Part shown: positions 2,769-7,838 of the stretch, one piece after another
Layout: each line of letters opens with the position of its first letter
Position numbering within the stretch: the stretch's first letter is position 1
From: Rhodococcus tibetensis
Lineage (GTDB): Bacteria; Actinomycetota; Actinomycetes; Mycobacteriales; Mycobacteriaceae
Direction of reading: 5' to 3'
NCBI RefSeq assembly: GCF_024438035.1
Contig: NZ_JANFQF010000008.1
Coordinates: 186,001-250,000 of the forward strand
DNA: 64,000 bases
Program-made: the position numbers and the translations under genes
The notes under the pieces: generated by a model
What the model saw: the letters and a program-made list of their open reading frames with translations, nothing else
Database searches by the model: none
Told to the model about the DNA's origin: nothing

Positions 2769-4007
2769 CTACTGACGCGGATGGGCCTGCTCGAGGCGCC
2801 GGGCAATGAGTGCCGCTTGGATCTGTCGTAATCCGGACGGCCGGGTGGGATCGAAACCGGTGAGCTGGGCAACCCGCTTGAGTCGGTAGTCGACGGTGTT
2901 CGCGTGGACGTGCATCTTCTTCGCGGTCCGTTGGCGGTTCAGATCGTGACCGATGTGGACCTCGAGTGTCTCGACGAGTTCCGGTGAACCGTCGAGCGGT
3001 TCGAGCAGACTCGCGAGATGCGTTCGCCCCGGCCCGTGCCGGGTGAGCTGAAACTCGAGGGCAAGGTCTTCCATTCGATACAGCCCCTGCGGCCGGGACA
3101 GCTGATGCACGAGGTCGAGCAGTTCGTGCACTTCGTCAGCCGCGCTGGGAATGCGGTCGATGCGTGCGGGGGCGACGGCCGCCGTCACGTCCGCCTCCGA
3201 TGCTTCACCGAGCCGGCGTATGAGGTTCTGCAGTTCCGCCGGTGTCGGTGTGCCCGGGAGGAGGATTGTTCCGCCCTCTTCGCTGAGGAGGGCGAGCGGC
3301 GCACCACCGCAGGCGTCCGAGATGGCGGCTTGCACACGTCGGGTCCGCCGTCGAATCCCGACGGCCTCGGGCAGCTTCGGGTTCGTATCCGCACGATACG
3401 GCGGCACCGACAACCCGATCACGACATAGTTCTCCACCAGTCCGATACCGGACTGTCTGGCCAGCGATACCGGATTACGCCCACTCAGGAGCGCCGTGAC
3501 CATCGCCTGCGCCGCCGAGTTCCGTTCGCTGGTCAATGCCTCGACCTCCGCCATGTAACTGGAGGTGGCAGCGACCGTCACACTCTCTACCAGTGCGAGC
3601 AGGAGGAGGGAACCCGCGACGACGTCATCCAGATCCTCCGCGCGAGCCTTGGAGACGACCAAGTCCCACCCCCGGCGGATTCCCTCGTGGTAGACGTGAA
3701 GAACCGACTTCAGTGGTACACCCTCACGCGCCCATTGGGCCGCGATCGTGCGCAGCGGATCCAGGTCTCCGTCTGCGGGTGCACTCCTGGTGTCGAACAT
3801 CTGTATACCGAGCTGCAGGCAATGAACCGTTACCTCGGTGACGTCGTTCTCGGACTGCTTACCCGGCGCCGTTCCCGGTGACGCGATCTCGGTGGCGAAT
3901 CGGGAGACCAGATGACGCGCCAGCGACCGAAAATTGCGTAGCGGCTCCGACGCCGGTTGGCCGGCCATCATGATCCCCAAGCCGGTCTCCGAATTATTAT
4001 CGGCCAC
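2769..4007 (-). CDS. PucR family transcriptional regulator (first of two paralogues)
   Basis: 412 residues, GTG start preceded by a GAGGGG ribosome site. The C-terminus carries the PucR-type helix-turn-helix with HDLNRQRTAKKMHVH followed by NTVDYRLKR and DPTRPSGLRQIQAAL, the conserved end of the family. The N-terminal 270 residues form the sensory region and contain no recognised ligand domain. It resembles the mycobacterial Rv1186c/Rv1194c group, members of which sit near proline catabolism and fadD36. It is divergent from the desaturase-like gene with 253 bases between them and is a close paralogue of the regulator at 5248-6486. Ligand unknown; regulation of the neighbouring gene is inference. 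Confidence 0.88.
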   Translation of the reverse strand: MADNNSETGLGIMMAGQPASEPLRNFRSLARHLVSRFATEIASPGTAPGKQSENDVTEVTVHCLQLGIQMFDTRSAPADGDLDPLRTIAAQWAREGVPLKSVLHVYHEGIRRGWDLVVSKARAEDLDDVVAGSLLLLALVESVTVAATSSYMAEVEALTSERNSAAQAMVTALLSGRNPVSLARQSGIGLVENYVVIGLSVPPYRADTNPKLPEAVGIRRRTRRVQAAISDACGGAPLALLSEEGGTILLPGTPTPAELQNLIRRLGEASEADVTAAVAPARIDRIPSAADEVHELLDLVHQLSRPQGLYRMEDLALEFQLTRHGPGRTHLASLLEPLDGSPELVETLEVHIGHDLNRQRTAKKMHVHANTVDYRLKRVAQLTGFDPTRPSGLRQIQAALIARRLEQAHPRQ

Positions 4008-4260
4008 AGCGTTTCCCCTCTCGCACTATGGCGGCTGACAACCCCCCGCACCGACATGAGTCGCCGAAGGTTACTGCACACGAGAGGTTCACGCACCCAC
4101 TACTCGCAGATGGCCGCCATTCCCTTGTGATGCCCGACAATCGGACACCGGCGCCGCTGCGATCTCCACCAAGAACGCCAGCGAAGACTGGCAAGCCTTC
4201 GAGTGCGCGACCTACGGTCCTCGAGTCAGCCCGCCCCAGTTGTCGACCCGAGGGATTCCC

Positions 4261-5235
4261 ATGGCCGCTACTTCCACCGTGACGATGTCGAGCCCGCACG
4301 GGCCCCGGCCCACGCTGCTCCCGCAACGCCAGTTGCTCCGTGAACTGCGGCCGACCGCGGAGGAGAACCTGCGACGCCACCGCGAGGCCGTCGACGTGTG
4401 GCACCCGCACGACTACTTTCCCCGAGACTGCGGAACCCCTGCTCCTAGGAGGATATTCACGGAACGGCGCAAACTCGACGACGTCGGGGAGGCGGCGATG
4501 ATCGTCACCCTGCTCACGGGAGACAATCTGCCGTCGGGCCTGCAGCAGCTGACCGACAGCGTCTCGAGGGACAGCGCCTGGGCAACATGGGTGCGGACCT
4601 GGACTGCCGAGACCCACCGGCACGGCGTCGTCCTGCGCGACTACCTGGTGGAGCGCCGTGGAGTAGATTCCGTGGCCCTCGAACGCGCCCGGATGCAGAA
4701 CATGACCGTCGGGATTGCCTGCGCGCTCGAAGGTGCCAGCCTGCTTCATTCGCTCGCGTCGGTCACGGTGCAGTCGCTCGCCACCGGGGTGTCGCACCGA
4801 AATGCCGGAGCGGTGTGTGGCGACCCACTCGCCGACAGGATCCTCACCAGAATCGGGGACGAGAAGAACCTGCACATGATCTTCTACCGGAATCTGGTTG
4901 CGGCAGCACTCGACTTGGCGCCGGACCAGGCCGTCCGCGCGGTGGCCGACGTGGTGATGAACTTCCAGATGCCCGGGGTGACCCTCCCGGGCTTCCGGCA
5001 CGCCGCGACGCTGATGGCGCGGCACGGAATCTACGACCTCCGGCGGCACCTCGACGAGGTGCTGCGGCCCACACTCGAGGCGTGGAACCTTTTCGACCGC
5101 AACGACTTCGGCAGCGCAGGCGAGCAGGTCCGCGACTGCATCAGCCGCTACCTCACGGACATGGAGGCGCAGGCACGACGATTCGACGAGTCGAGGGACC
5201 GCGCCTTCACCCGGACCACCGAACTCGCGGGCTGA
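4261..5235 (+). CDS. Acyl-ACP desaturase-like protein lacking diiron-ligand glutamates (probable pseudoenzyme)
   Basis: 324 residues. I chose the ATG at 4261 because AGGGA lies five bases upstream; an in-frame TTG at 4240 is possible. Family landmarks are clear: ENLRRH near the start, WTAETHRHG (114-122), LATGVSHRN, NLHMIFYRN (203-211) and HLDEVLRPTLEAW. These match soluble type 2 acyl-ACP desaturases (castor stearoyl-ACP desaturase, mycobacterial DesA1). Aligned without gaps to DesA1 from memory, the four carboxylate ligands are replaced: Gly87, Thr118, Ser172 and Lys202. Both ligand histidines, His121 and His205, remain. A normal diiron centre is therefore unlikely. A regulatory or binding role is inference. 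It lies between two PucR regulators. Confidence 0.85.
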   Translation: MAATSTVTMSSPHGPRPTLLPQRQLLRELRPTAEENLRRHREAVDVWHPHDYFPRDCGTPAPRRIFTERRKLDDVGEAAMIVTLLTGDNLPSGLQQLTDSVSRDSAWATWVRTWTAETHRHGVVLRDYLVERRGVDSVALERARMQNMTVGIACALEGASLLHSLASVTVQSLATGVSHRNAGAVCGDPLADRILTRIGDEKNLHMIFYRNLVAAALDLAPDQAVRAVADVVMNFQMPGVTLPGFRHAATLMARHGIYDLRRHLDEVLRPTLEAWNLFDRNDFGSAGEQVRDCISRYLTDMEAQARRFDESRDRAFTRTTELAG

Positions 5236-5247
5236 GGAACCCGGCAG

Positions 5248-6486
5248 TCAGCGTTCGCGTTGGGCCACCTCGAGTTTCCGGGCCACGAGCGCGGCCTGGA
5301 TCTGACGCAATCCGGAAGGTCGCGTCGGGTCGCACCCGGTGAGCTGCGCTATTCGTTTCAACCGATAGTCGACCGTGTTGGTGTGCAGGTGCATCTTCTT
5401 CGCCGTGCGCTGCCGGTTCAGGTCGTGGCCGATGTGCACTTCGAGAGTTTCGATCAGCTCCGGTGAGTTCTGCAACGGATCGAGAAGACGTGCGAGGTGG
5501 GTACGGCCCGGGCCGGGACGGGTGAGCTGATATTCGAGTGCCAGATCATTCATCTCGTAGAGACCTGGAGCCAATGCCAGCTGATGCGCGAGGTCGAGAA
5601 GTTCGTGTACCTGCTCCGCCGCCGTCGGGATGTCTGCCGTGCGCACCCGACTCACCGTCGCGGTCAGTGGTACTTCCGCGGCCGCCCCGACGCGGTCGAG
5701 CAGCGACACGATCCATGCCCGTTCGGGCGAGCCGGGGAGCAGTATCGTGCCGCCGTCGGGACTGAGGGAACACAGGGCCGCCCCGCCGGAGGCCTCGGCC
5801 AGTTCGATCTGCAGACGTCGCAACTTCTGCCGCGCGACCACGGCCTTGCGCCGGTGAGCGACTGCCTCGGCGGGGTGCGGCGGCACCGCAAGGCCCATGA
5901 CAACGTAGTTCTCGGCCGGCTCCACCCCCGCATGTCGGGCAGCCGACGCCGCCTTCCTACCGCTGAGCAGTGCGGTGACAAGGTTGACGGCGGCGCCGTC
6001 GCGTTCACTGTTGACGGCTTCGAGCTCGTTCACGTAGCTGGTAGTGGCCGCGACCGTCACGCACTCGAGAAGCGAGAACATCACCTTCTGGATGACCAGC
6101 AGGCCGGGCAGATCCTCCTCGCGGGCATTGGCCGCCGCGAGGTCGCCGGCCTTGGTGATGCCCTCGTGCAGGATGCGCAGAACCAGCGTCAAGGGAAAGC
6201 CCTCGCGGGCCCACCGAGCCGAGGCGTTCCGCACTTCCGCGAGGTCGTCGTCGGTGGGCGAAGTTCCTCCGTCGAGCATCTGAATGCCCAGTCGCAAGCA
6301 CACGACGGTGAAATCGGTCACGTCGCTCTGGAGCTGCTCACCGGGCAGCGATCCGCAGGGAGTCACGTTGTCGGCGAAATGCCGTACCAGTTTTCGGGCG
6401 ACCGCGAGCGTGTCGCGTAGCGGGGCAGACGCCGGCCTACCATCGACGAGAATCTGCAAACCCGCCCCCGAACTGTGATCTGTCAT
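5248..6486 (-). CDS. PucR family transcriptional regulator (second paralogue)
   Basis: About 412 residues from the ATG at 6486; an upstream GTG at 6498 is also open but sits directly on the GGAG ribosome site, which fits the 6486 start better. It shares the whole layout of the 2769-4007 regulator: a MLDGGT-type N-terminal sensory half, the sequence HDLNRQRTAKKMHLH and the end DPTRPSGLRQIQAALVARKLE. The two are products of a duplication. Its stop is 12 bases from the convergent desaturase-like gene. The adjacent proline-catabolism and fadD36 genes make proline or acyl-CoA metabolism plausible targets, but no binding site was identified. Confidence 0.87.
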   Translation of the reverse strand: MTDHSSGAGLQILVDGRPASAPLRDTLAVARKLVRHFADNVTPCGSLPGEQLQSDVTDFTVVCLRLGIQMLDGGTSPTDDDLAEVRNASARWAREGFPLTLVLRILHEGITKAGDLAAANAREEDLPGLLVIQKVMFSLLECVTVAATTSYVNELEAVNSERDGAAVNLVTALLSGRKAASAARHAGVEPAENYVVMGLAVPPHPAEAVAHRRKAVVARQKLRRLQIELAEASGGAALCSLSPDGGTILLPGSPERAWIVSLLDRVGAAAEVPLTATVSRVRTADIPTAAEQVHELLDLAHQLALAPGLYEMNDLALEYQLTRPGPGRTHLARLLDPLQNSPELIETLEVHIGHDLNRQRTAKKMHLHTNTVDYRLKRIAQLTGCDPTRPSGLRQIQAALVARKLEVAQRER

Positions 6487-6609
6487 AGATCTCATCACTC
6501 CAATATGTGGATGACACCGAACTCTCGCACCATCGACATCACGCGCACATAACGAGGGTTCGCTTCTATAACTGTTTTATCACGACGACGCTCTGTGCAG
6601 GAAGAATAC

Positions 6610-6745: not shown

Positions 6746-7801
6746 TCAGGTCTCCTCGGCGACCCGGACCACCAGCTTGCCGAAGTTTTTTCCGCCGAGA
6801 AGTCCGATGAACGCTGCCGGGGCGTTCTCGATTCCGTCGACGAAGTCCTCGCGGTATGCGAAACGTCCCTCCCCAATCCAGCCCGCGACATCCCGCTGGA
6901 AGTCGGCGAACATGTCGGGGACGAACTCGCTCTGGATGAATCCGCGAATCGTGAGACTCTTCACCAATACTCGAGTGAAGAAGCCGGGCAACCGATCCGG
7001 ACCCTCGGGAGTCGCCGTGTCGTTGTACTGGGCGATCAAACCGCACACGGGAACGCGAGCATAGAGATTGAGGAGCGGGAGCACCGCCGCGGCGACGGCG
7101 CCGCCGACGTTCTCGAAGTAGACGTCGATCCCGTCCGGCACTGCAGCGCGGAGTTGTCGGGCGAAATCCGGGGACCGATGATCGACGGCGGCGTCGAAAC
7201 CCAGTTCCTCCGACAGATAGGCACATTTCTCGGGACCGCCCGCGATACCGACCGCCCGGGCGCCCTTCAATTTCGCGATCTGGCCGACCGCGGAACCGAC
7301 AGGCCCGCTCGCCGCCGCGACGACGACGGTCTCCCCTGGTTTCGGCTGACCGATCTTCAGCAATCCGGAATAGGCAGTGAATCCGGGCATCCCGAGAACA
7401 CCGACCGCGGTCGAGAGCGGCGCCGCGGCCGGGTCGAGCTTGCGGAGATGACGACCGTCGACCACCGCATGTGACTGCCACCCGGCGTAGGCGAGAACGT
7501 AGTCACCGGTAGCGAGCTTCGGGTGGCGCGATTCGATCACCTGGCCGACGGTGCCGCCCACCATCACCTCGTCGATCTCGACCGGATCCGCATACGATTC
7601 GGCGGTGCTCATCCGTCCCCGCATGTACGGGTCGAGCGACAGGTAGATGACACGGATGAGCACCTGCCCGTCGGCGAGGTCGGGCAGACTCACTACCTCG
7701 AGACGGAAATTGTCCGTCGTGGGCGTGCCGTCCGGGCGGGAGGCCAGGACGATCCGGGTGCTCTGAACAATGCTGTCGACACTCACTGTGCGCCTGCCCA
7801 T
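6746..7801 (-). CDS. NADP-dependent MDR-family oxidoreductase (zinc-independent)
   Basis: About 351 residues from the ATG at 7801; a GTG at 7786 (VSVDSIV) is an alternative start. It is a medium-chain dehydrogenase/reductase of the leukotriene B4 dehydrogenase/curcumin reductase group. Visible features are SLDPYMRGRM near the N-terminus, the cofactor motif AASGPVGSAVGQIAKLKGARAVG, GLIAQYND, and the end GKNFGKLVVRV. The structural and catalytic zinc ligands of alcohol dehydrogenases are absent, as expected for this group. Members reduce alpha,beta-unsaturated ketones or aldehydes with NADPH. It follows fadD36 by 37 bases on the same strand, so both are probably cotranscribed. Confidence 0.85.
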   Translation of the reverse strand: MGRRTVSVDSIVQSTRIVLASRPDGTPTTDNFRLEVVSLPDLADGQVLIRVIYLSLDPYMRGRMSTAESYADPVEIDEVMVGGTVGQVIESRHPKLATGDYVLAYAGWQSHAVVDGRHLRKLDPAAAPLSTAVGVLGMPGFTAYSGLLKIGQPKPGETVVVAAASGPVGSAVGQIAKLKGARAVGIAGGPEKCAYLSEELGFDAAVDHRSPDFARQLRAAVPDGIDVYFENVGGAVAAAVLPLLNLYARVPVCGLIAQYNDTATPEGPDRLPGFFTRVLVKSLTIRGFIQSEFVPDMFADFQRDVAGWIGEGRFAYREDFVDGIENAPAAFIGLLGGKNFGKLVVRVAEET

Positions 7802-7838
7802 CCGTAGTGATCCGGTTCCGGACGCCACCCTACCGACG

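Follow-up and report, generated by a model that had tools for sequence, protein, structure and literature searches.

A probable desaturase-fold pseudoenzyme of Rhodococcus tibetensis, encoded beside PucR-type regulators, belongs to a recurrent class of ligand-stripped acyl-ACP desaturase homologues

What does a protein of the acyl-ACP desaturase family do once its iron ligands are gone, and is it kept by selection? In the castor desaturase the terminal ligands are Glu105/His146 and Glu196/His232, and Glu143 and Glu229 bridge the two irons (available part of PMC9825965). The question is raised by a gene in a 64,000-nucleotide stretch of Rhodococcus tibetensis DNA (the window), for which the original prediction, made from the sequence alone, had claimed that the four ligand glutamates are replaced, that both histidines remain and that the protein aligns ungapped around these sites. 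On the basis of sequence comparisons, the gene very probably encodes a desaturase-fold pseudoenzyme under selection, an enzyme homologue whose catalytic residues have been lost. The features of the locus are collected in Table 1.

The open reading frame begins with ATG, has no internal stop and encodes a protein that matches the PF03405 profile over residues 23–312, a whole-fold match far above the cut-off (175.8 against 22.7 bits). By phmmer its best solved relatives are Mycobacterium tuberculosis DesA2 (1za0, E 7.8e-28), followed by plant acyl-ACP desaturases. The phmmer alignments with DesA2 and castor desaturase (1afr) run through all six ligand residues without a gap, and an MAFFT alignment, likewise ungapped there, reads G87, T118, H121, S172, K202 and H205 in the window protein where canonical desaturases read E,E,H,E,E,H in 60 of 60 rows (a set without L053, EEHEEH; L039, KEHEEH; and the canonical fragments L150 and L151, whose ligands were read before they were dropped from later counts). 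These points of the prediction are confirmed by the same alignments. The window protein shares with canonical acyl-ACP desaturases the fold family, the length, both ligand histidines, Trp47 and Trp114, at 47–61% identity to the canonical rows; unlike them, it has all four ligand glutamates replaced and both ExxH motifs broken. Given the ligand roles in castor desaturase, it has neither the bridging nor the terminal carboxylates and, because all four are gone, the usual diiron centre is predicted not to assemble.

Table 1. Features of the pseudoenzyme locus (positions of the window; castor desaturase numbering for ligands)
Feature	Position	Strand	Evidence
Probable desaturase-fold pseudoenzyme, 324 aa	4261..5235	+	PF03405, 175.8 bits
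Gly87, codon GGA, at the castor Glu105 (terminal ligand) position	4519..4521	+	phmmer, MAFFT
Thr118, codon ACC, at the castor Glu143 (bridging ligand) position	4612..4614	+	phmmer, MAFFT
His121, codon CAC, kept ligand (castor His146)	4621..4623	+	phmmer, MAFFT
Ser172, codon TCG, at the castor Glu196 (terminal ligand) position; Glu in the G010 orthologue	4774..4776	+	phmmer, MAFFT
Lys202, codon AAG, at the castor Glu229 (bridging ligand) position; also Lys in G010	4864..4866	+	phmmer, MAFFT
His205, codon CAC, kept ligand (castor His232)	4873..4875	+	phmmer, MAFFT
PucR-type regulator A, divergent from the pseudoenzyme	2769..4007	-	HTH_30 1.8e-19
Divergent intergenic region, with 29 bp identical to G010 at 4051-4079; candidate promoter/operator region	4008..4260	.	
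PucR-type regulator B, 57% identical to A, convergent with the pseudoenzyme	5248..6498	-	
CurA-type NADPH-dependent reductase; syntenic anchor common to G010 and G025	6746..7828	-	

By sequence, neighboring acidic residues do not take the place of the lost ligands: canonical DesA1 has the same residues as Asp88 and Glu117 beside its true ligands, and canonical proteins carry a conserved Asp at the position of Glu201. AlphaFold models of the window protein from 7- and 8-row alignments had a mean pLDDT of 55.8 and 65.0, too weak for site geometry. In helix 4 the window codons GAC GAG AAG AAC face GCC GAC GAG AAC in the canonical copy of genome G025, so that Lys202 may have arisen not by an E-to-K substitution but by insertion of an AAG codon together with loss of a codon for Ala; the helix-4 ExxH is broken either way.

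The host genome (G000) also carries a canonical DesA1 (L001, EEHEEH), to which the window protein is 52–54% identical, and a DesA2-like gene (L003, AEHEDQ), which makes the pseudoenzyme a third copy. DesA2 of M. tuberculosis, in which Lys76 occupies the A-site, belongs to the family but has an altered metal site and so is a partial precedent. Altered metal-binding sites in DesA2, and the essentiality of desA2 in M. smegmatis, are described in the available part of PMC9050676. The DesA2-like protein L039, from a metagenome-assembled genome, nevertheless retains five of the six ligands (KEHEEH), unlike the window protein, and falls in a different clade. The DesA2-like proteins of the window genus (L003, L054, L055, L057) have a partly altered site, reading A,E,H,E,D,Q in 4/4 rows.

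Among 28 genomes of the genus a single close orthologue was found, in G010 (76% identity), followed by the G025 copy (61%) and then by matches of at most 55%; the same three genomes (window genome, G010, G025) head the list in 401 genomes of the family. The G010 protein reads A,N,H,E,K,H, having lost three glutamates and kept Glu196. Chance or sequencing error is rejected as the source of the replacements, since this orthologue comes from a different species, has the same Lys202 and is missing two further glutamates. The orthologue search proposed with the original prediction did find a ligand-poor orthologue, but not one with the same four replacements, as only Lys202 is common to ANHEKH and GTHSKH. 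Residues 87 and 118 differ between the two proteins, which would be compatible with more than one order of the losses other than Lys202. In G025 the corresponding locus, between a permease gene and the genes for CurA, acyl-CoA synthetase, PRODH and P5CDH, is occupied by a canonical copy (E,E,H,E,E,H). It is therefore most likely that this position once held a canonical gene whose ligands were then lost on the line leading to the window and G010. Beyond the G025 content, the locus in these two genomes holds a VWA gene and two PucR-type genes; the VWA-domain gene (1022-2662 in the window) is present at the locus in G000 and G010 and was not found in G025.

The window gene is not a one-off but belongs to a recurrent class of ligand-stripped desaturase homologues. 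A helix-2 pattern requiring a residue other than Glu at the ligand position matched 28 times, in 27 of the 401 family genomes, against 13 times for the reversed control pattern and, as it detects only replacement codons that do not start with G, these figures are no census. Examination by tblastn of 26 of the 28 matches (the window and G010 being already known) placed two more in desaturases, in G169 and G190. The G190 homologue (L095, L123) reads E,Q,H,H,E,H, lies on a very long branch and has a PucR-like gene adjoining on the same strand. In the G169 protein (HKHVQQ) all four glutamates and one histidine are lost; used as a query, it found relatives at 52% identity or more in 30 of the 37 genomes of its genus, 32 genes in all, and in the remaining seven genomes the best match was a canonical copy at 47–49%. 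Across the family sample, 31 genomes matched it at E <= 1e-88, namely these 30 and G053. All 32 genes are open across residues 15–295 of the 310-residue query and, when read individually, form two clades: clade I with 13 HKHVQH and 3 HKHVQQ, and clade II with 14 ERHEQH and 2 ERHVQH. Half of them (16/32) lack all four glutamates and the other half two or three. Counting the window and G010, both bridging glutamates are replaced in 34/34 ligand-poor genes, and in every one of them a basic residue occupies one bridging position, Arg in clade II and Lys in the window, G010 and clade I, while loss of the terminal glutamates is limited to some groups.

Members of this class also occur on mobile DNA. 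The matching locus of G053 (G053:C21, L167), 4.2 kb long, is identical to one in a genome of another genus (G288:C90, L168), through either plasmid transfer or contamination. Four of 12 matching records, plasmids from Rhodococcus pyridinivorans, R. ruber and a further two Rhodococcus strains, encode a protein identical to that of G288. The mobilizable R. pyridinivorans plasmid pGZ01 (L183:9103-10008) encodes a clade II protein (ERHEQH) annotated as acyl-ACP desaturase, flanked on one side by a gene for a universal stress protein and on the other by a divergent PucR-type gene, whose product shares 56–59% identity with the two PucR proteins of the window. Of four viral-contig scans for further relatives, one gave two loci and the other three gave nothing.

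A 74-row tree, built without L053, L039 and 27 near-duplicate canonical names (in an earlier tree the long-branch row L053 fell beside the window pair), groups the window and G010 (100/100) with the canonical G025 copy (96/88) and the 32 genes of the G169 genus (100/100) with the canonical rows L034-L038 and L062 (91/83). As each ligand-poor group has canonical copies as its sister, ligands were lost in at least two separate events, the second placement being moderately supported; a single loss common to both lineages is rejected on the same sisters (96/88, and 91/83, the latter moderate). The window protein also stands, with G010 and G025, outside the four DesA2-like rows of its genus, in a separate clade, and the possibility that it is DesA2 is rejected.

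Judged from residue conservation, the fold seems to have been preserved and the metal site not. The canonical rows share 146 positions at 97% conservation or more; of these the window protein, G010 and at least 80% of each clade all retain 51, including W47, W114, Y128, F235, P238, G239 and G256-D259. Another 24 of the 146 are lost in all four groups, both bridging glutamates among them. Retention in clades I and II is low at 80–119 (0.25–0.50) and equally low at 300–319 (0.25), and the lowest bin of the window protein is 60–79 (0.25). The window protein and G010 retain every conserved position at 20–39, 220–239 and 280–299.

The pseudoenzyme is under purifying selection, which is clearly relaxed in the window lineage. 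Between G000 and G010 its dN/dS is 0.364 (bootstrap 0.257–0.530), the highest of 11 genes compared, the ten others ranging from 0.005 to 0.148; DesA1 of the same genome pair is the lowest (0.005), and the relaxation is read from this difference. In a branch model of 299 codons and 10 sequences, with the frameshifted tail of G010 removed and the stem branch saturated, omega was 0.166 on the window and G010 tips and 0.020 in the background, and omega = 1 on the two tips was rejected (lnL -5132.06 vs -5090.03, 42 log units worse). A 1-nt indel close to the C-terminus gives the G010 copy a different tail. Within the G169 genus, median omega for pairs with dS 0.1–1.2 was 0.123 in clade I (23/120 pairs) and 0.132 in clade II (117/120), compared by the same method with 0.116 for DesA1 (246/253) and 0.076 for canonical PucR-linked copies (15/15); NG86 dN/dS and codon models were run from custom scripts. 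The replacement residues H, K, V and Q are invariant in 16/16 clade I genes, with 103 of 274 columns invariant overall, so that the probability of all four being invariant by chance is modest evidence (P = 0.019). The original prediction that the gene is kept by selection holds on these grounds (dN/dS 0.364, rejection of omega = 1, replacements fixed in 16 relatives), though the intact frame and ribosome site on which it had relied are insufficient alone.

Both PucR-type genes that flank the pseudoenzyme share the C-terminal HTH_30 domain of PucR/CdaR-type regulators and match the named NCBIfam members over the HTH only, far below the cut-offs. In the host genome their subfamily consists of these two genes, the next match being 37% over 76 residues; relatives at E <= 1e-60 occur in 153 of the 401 family genomes. 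Members of the regulator A subfamily are the divergent partners of the pseudoenzyme relatives: a divergent PucR-type gene adjoins 34/34 ligand-poor genes (the window and G010, 26 genes of the G169 genus by tblastn and the other six by position), counts which are not independent as they go back to few events in the tree. The canonical copies of the G169 genus also have a divergent PucR gene (7/7), and no such gene was found at the other desaturase loci for which roughly 1.5 kb of flank or a longer stretch was available (0/57, L001 and L032 being one gene) or adjoining the canonical G025 copy. Two of 30 fetched PucR loci (G007, G015) are without an adjoining desaturase, on which strict co-dependence of the two genes is rejected. 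The PucR genes at these loci (L155, L156) are 76–78% identical to regulator A and lie beside a CurA-like gene, recognized by its start.

No operator sequence common to the window and the G169 genus was found in these intergenic regions. None of the commonest intergenic 8- to 10-mers of the G169 genus is present in the window, and 26 loci of that genus have a conserved intergenic block of their own; a sigma-70 scan of 3900-4400 gave no match. On the promoter side of regulator B (6496-6601) there are 4 mismatches to G010 in the first 106 alignment columns, unlike the roughly 29% synonymous differences of the gene itself. A regulatory link between the pseudoenzyme and its divergent PucR gene is judged likely from this arrangement because the partner is divergent, which is not proof, as divergent genes may only share regulation.

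Taken with its neighbors, the protein may most readily be assigned, still tentatively, a non-catalytic role tied to the PucR regulator, in which it would bind an acyl chain or its carrier. Under this proposal it would keep the outer shell of an acyl-ACP desaturase; the Lys at one bridging position would, by analogy with the Lys of DesA2, fill the metal site and help to hold the four-helix bundle, a cationic side chain (Lys or Arg) substituting for the metal; and the protein would bind its acyl carrier or chain without turnover. It might then report chain status to the adjacent PucR protein, or be made on demand by it, as a sensor or a decoy. The most specific version, a new acyl-chain sensor derived from a desaturase fold stripped at least twice, binding acyl-ACP, signaling to the divergent PucR and using Lys/Arg as a structural cation, is doubtful as a whole. 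Against acyl binding linked to PucR stand the relaxed selection in the window lineage and the C-terminal indel of G010, the PucR subfamily members without an adjoining desaturase, for which the pairing is evidently not obligatory, and the lack of a PucR neighbor in canonical G025. In a limited literature search of titles and abstract starts no paper was found on pseudoenzyme acyl-ACP desaturases, and limited searches likewise gave none linking PucR, desaturase and Rhodococcus and none on acyl-ACP desaturase paralogs in Rhodococcus.

The main rival draws on the fact that acyl-ACP desaturases are homodimers: an inactive partner subunit could form a heterodimer with canonical DesA1 and tune its activity or substrate choice. 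Both G000 and G010 retain DesA1, with protein sequences identical to two decimals, and some conserved outer positions survive in the pseudoenzyme, but the distance from its own DesA1 leaves a matching interface unproven and no paper on acyl-ACP desaturase heterodimers was found by title, so that this role seems unlikely. Decay, with a frame still open by chance, would account for the highest dN/dS of the gene set, the frameshifted C-terminus of G010 and the loss of one more Glu in the window protein than in G010; it is made quite improbable by the rejection of omega = 1 on the two tips and by the 32/32 open genes of the G169 genus, with their fixed replacements and ordinary omega.

Two further alternatives would preserve some chemistry at the site. 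An altered mononuclear metal site, formed by His121 and His205 with acidic neighbors (Glu201 or Glu117, for instance), would agree with the retention of both histidines in the window and G010 and with the third His gained by clade I at the Glu105 position. We regard it as very unlikely, as the second His is lost in three clade I genes (HKHVQQ) and a Lys or Arg at the bridging position would disfavor a metal cation there. Least probable of all is a metal-free enzyme performing redox chemistry in the manner of class Ie ribonucleotide reductase R2, even though the window protein, G010 and clade I each have a Lys among their ligand positions and the window protein retains Trp47, Trp114, His121 and Thr175. 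R2 has a Tyr at position four after the helix-2 ligand His; the window protein and G010 have Leu there, L105 has Ile, and the ligand-bearing stretch 80–119 is poorly retained in clades I and II. Class Ie R2 is nevertheless an active precedent, in which QSK or VPK takes the place of three ligand glutamates and activity persists without metal (available part of PMC11846895).

Public plasmid records label ligand-poor proteins of this kind 'acyl-ACP desaturase', and lipid pathways may be over-assigned on this account. From full ligands through the loss of two or three to the loss of four, these genes form a natural series within one gene lineage, mostly beside one regulator family, which allows one to ask how an iron enzyme becomes something else and which of its parts must stay. 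If the protein does sense acyl chains, it would provide a lipid input for the PucR-type regulators of these bacteria.
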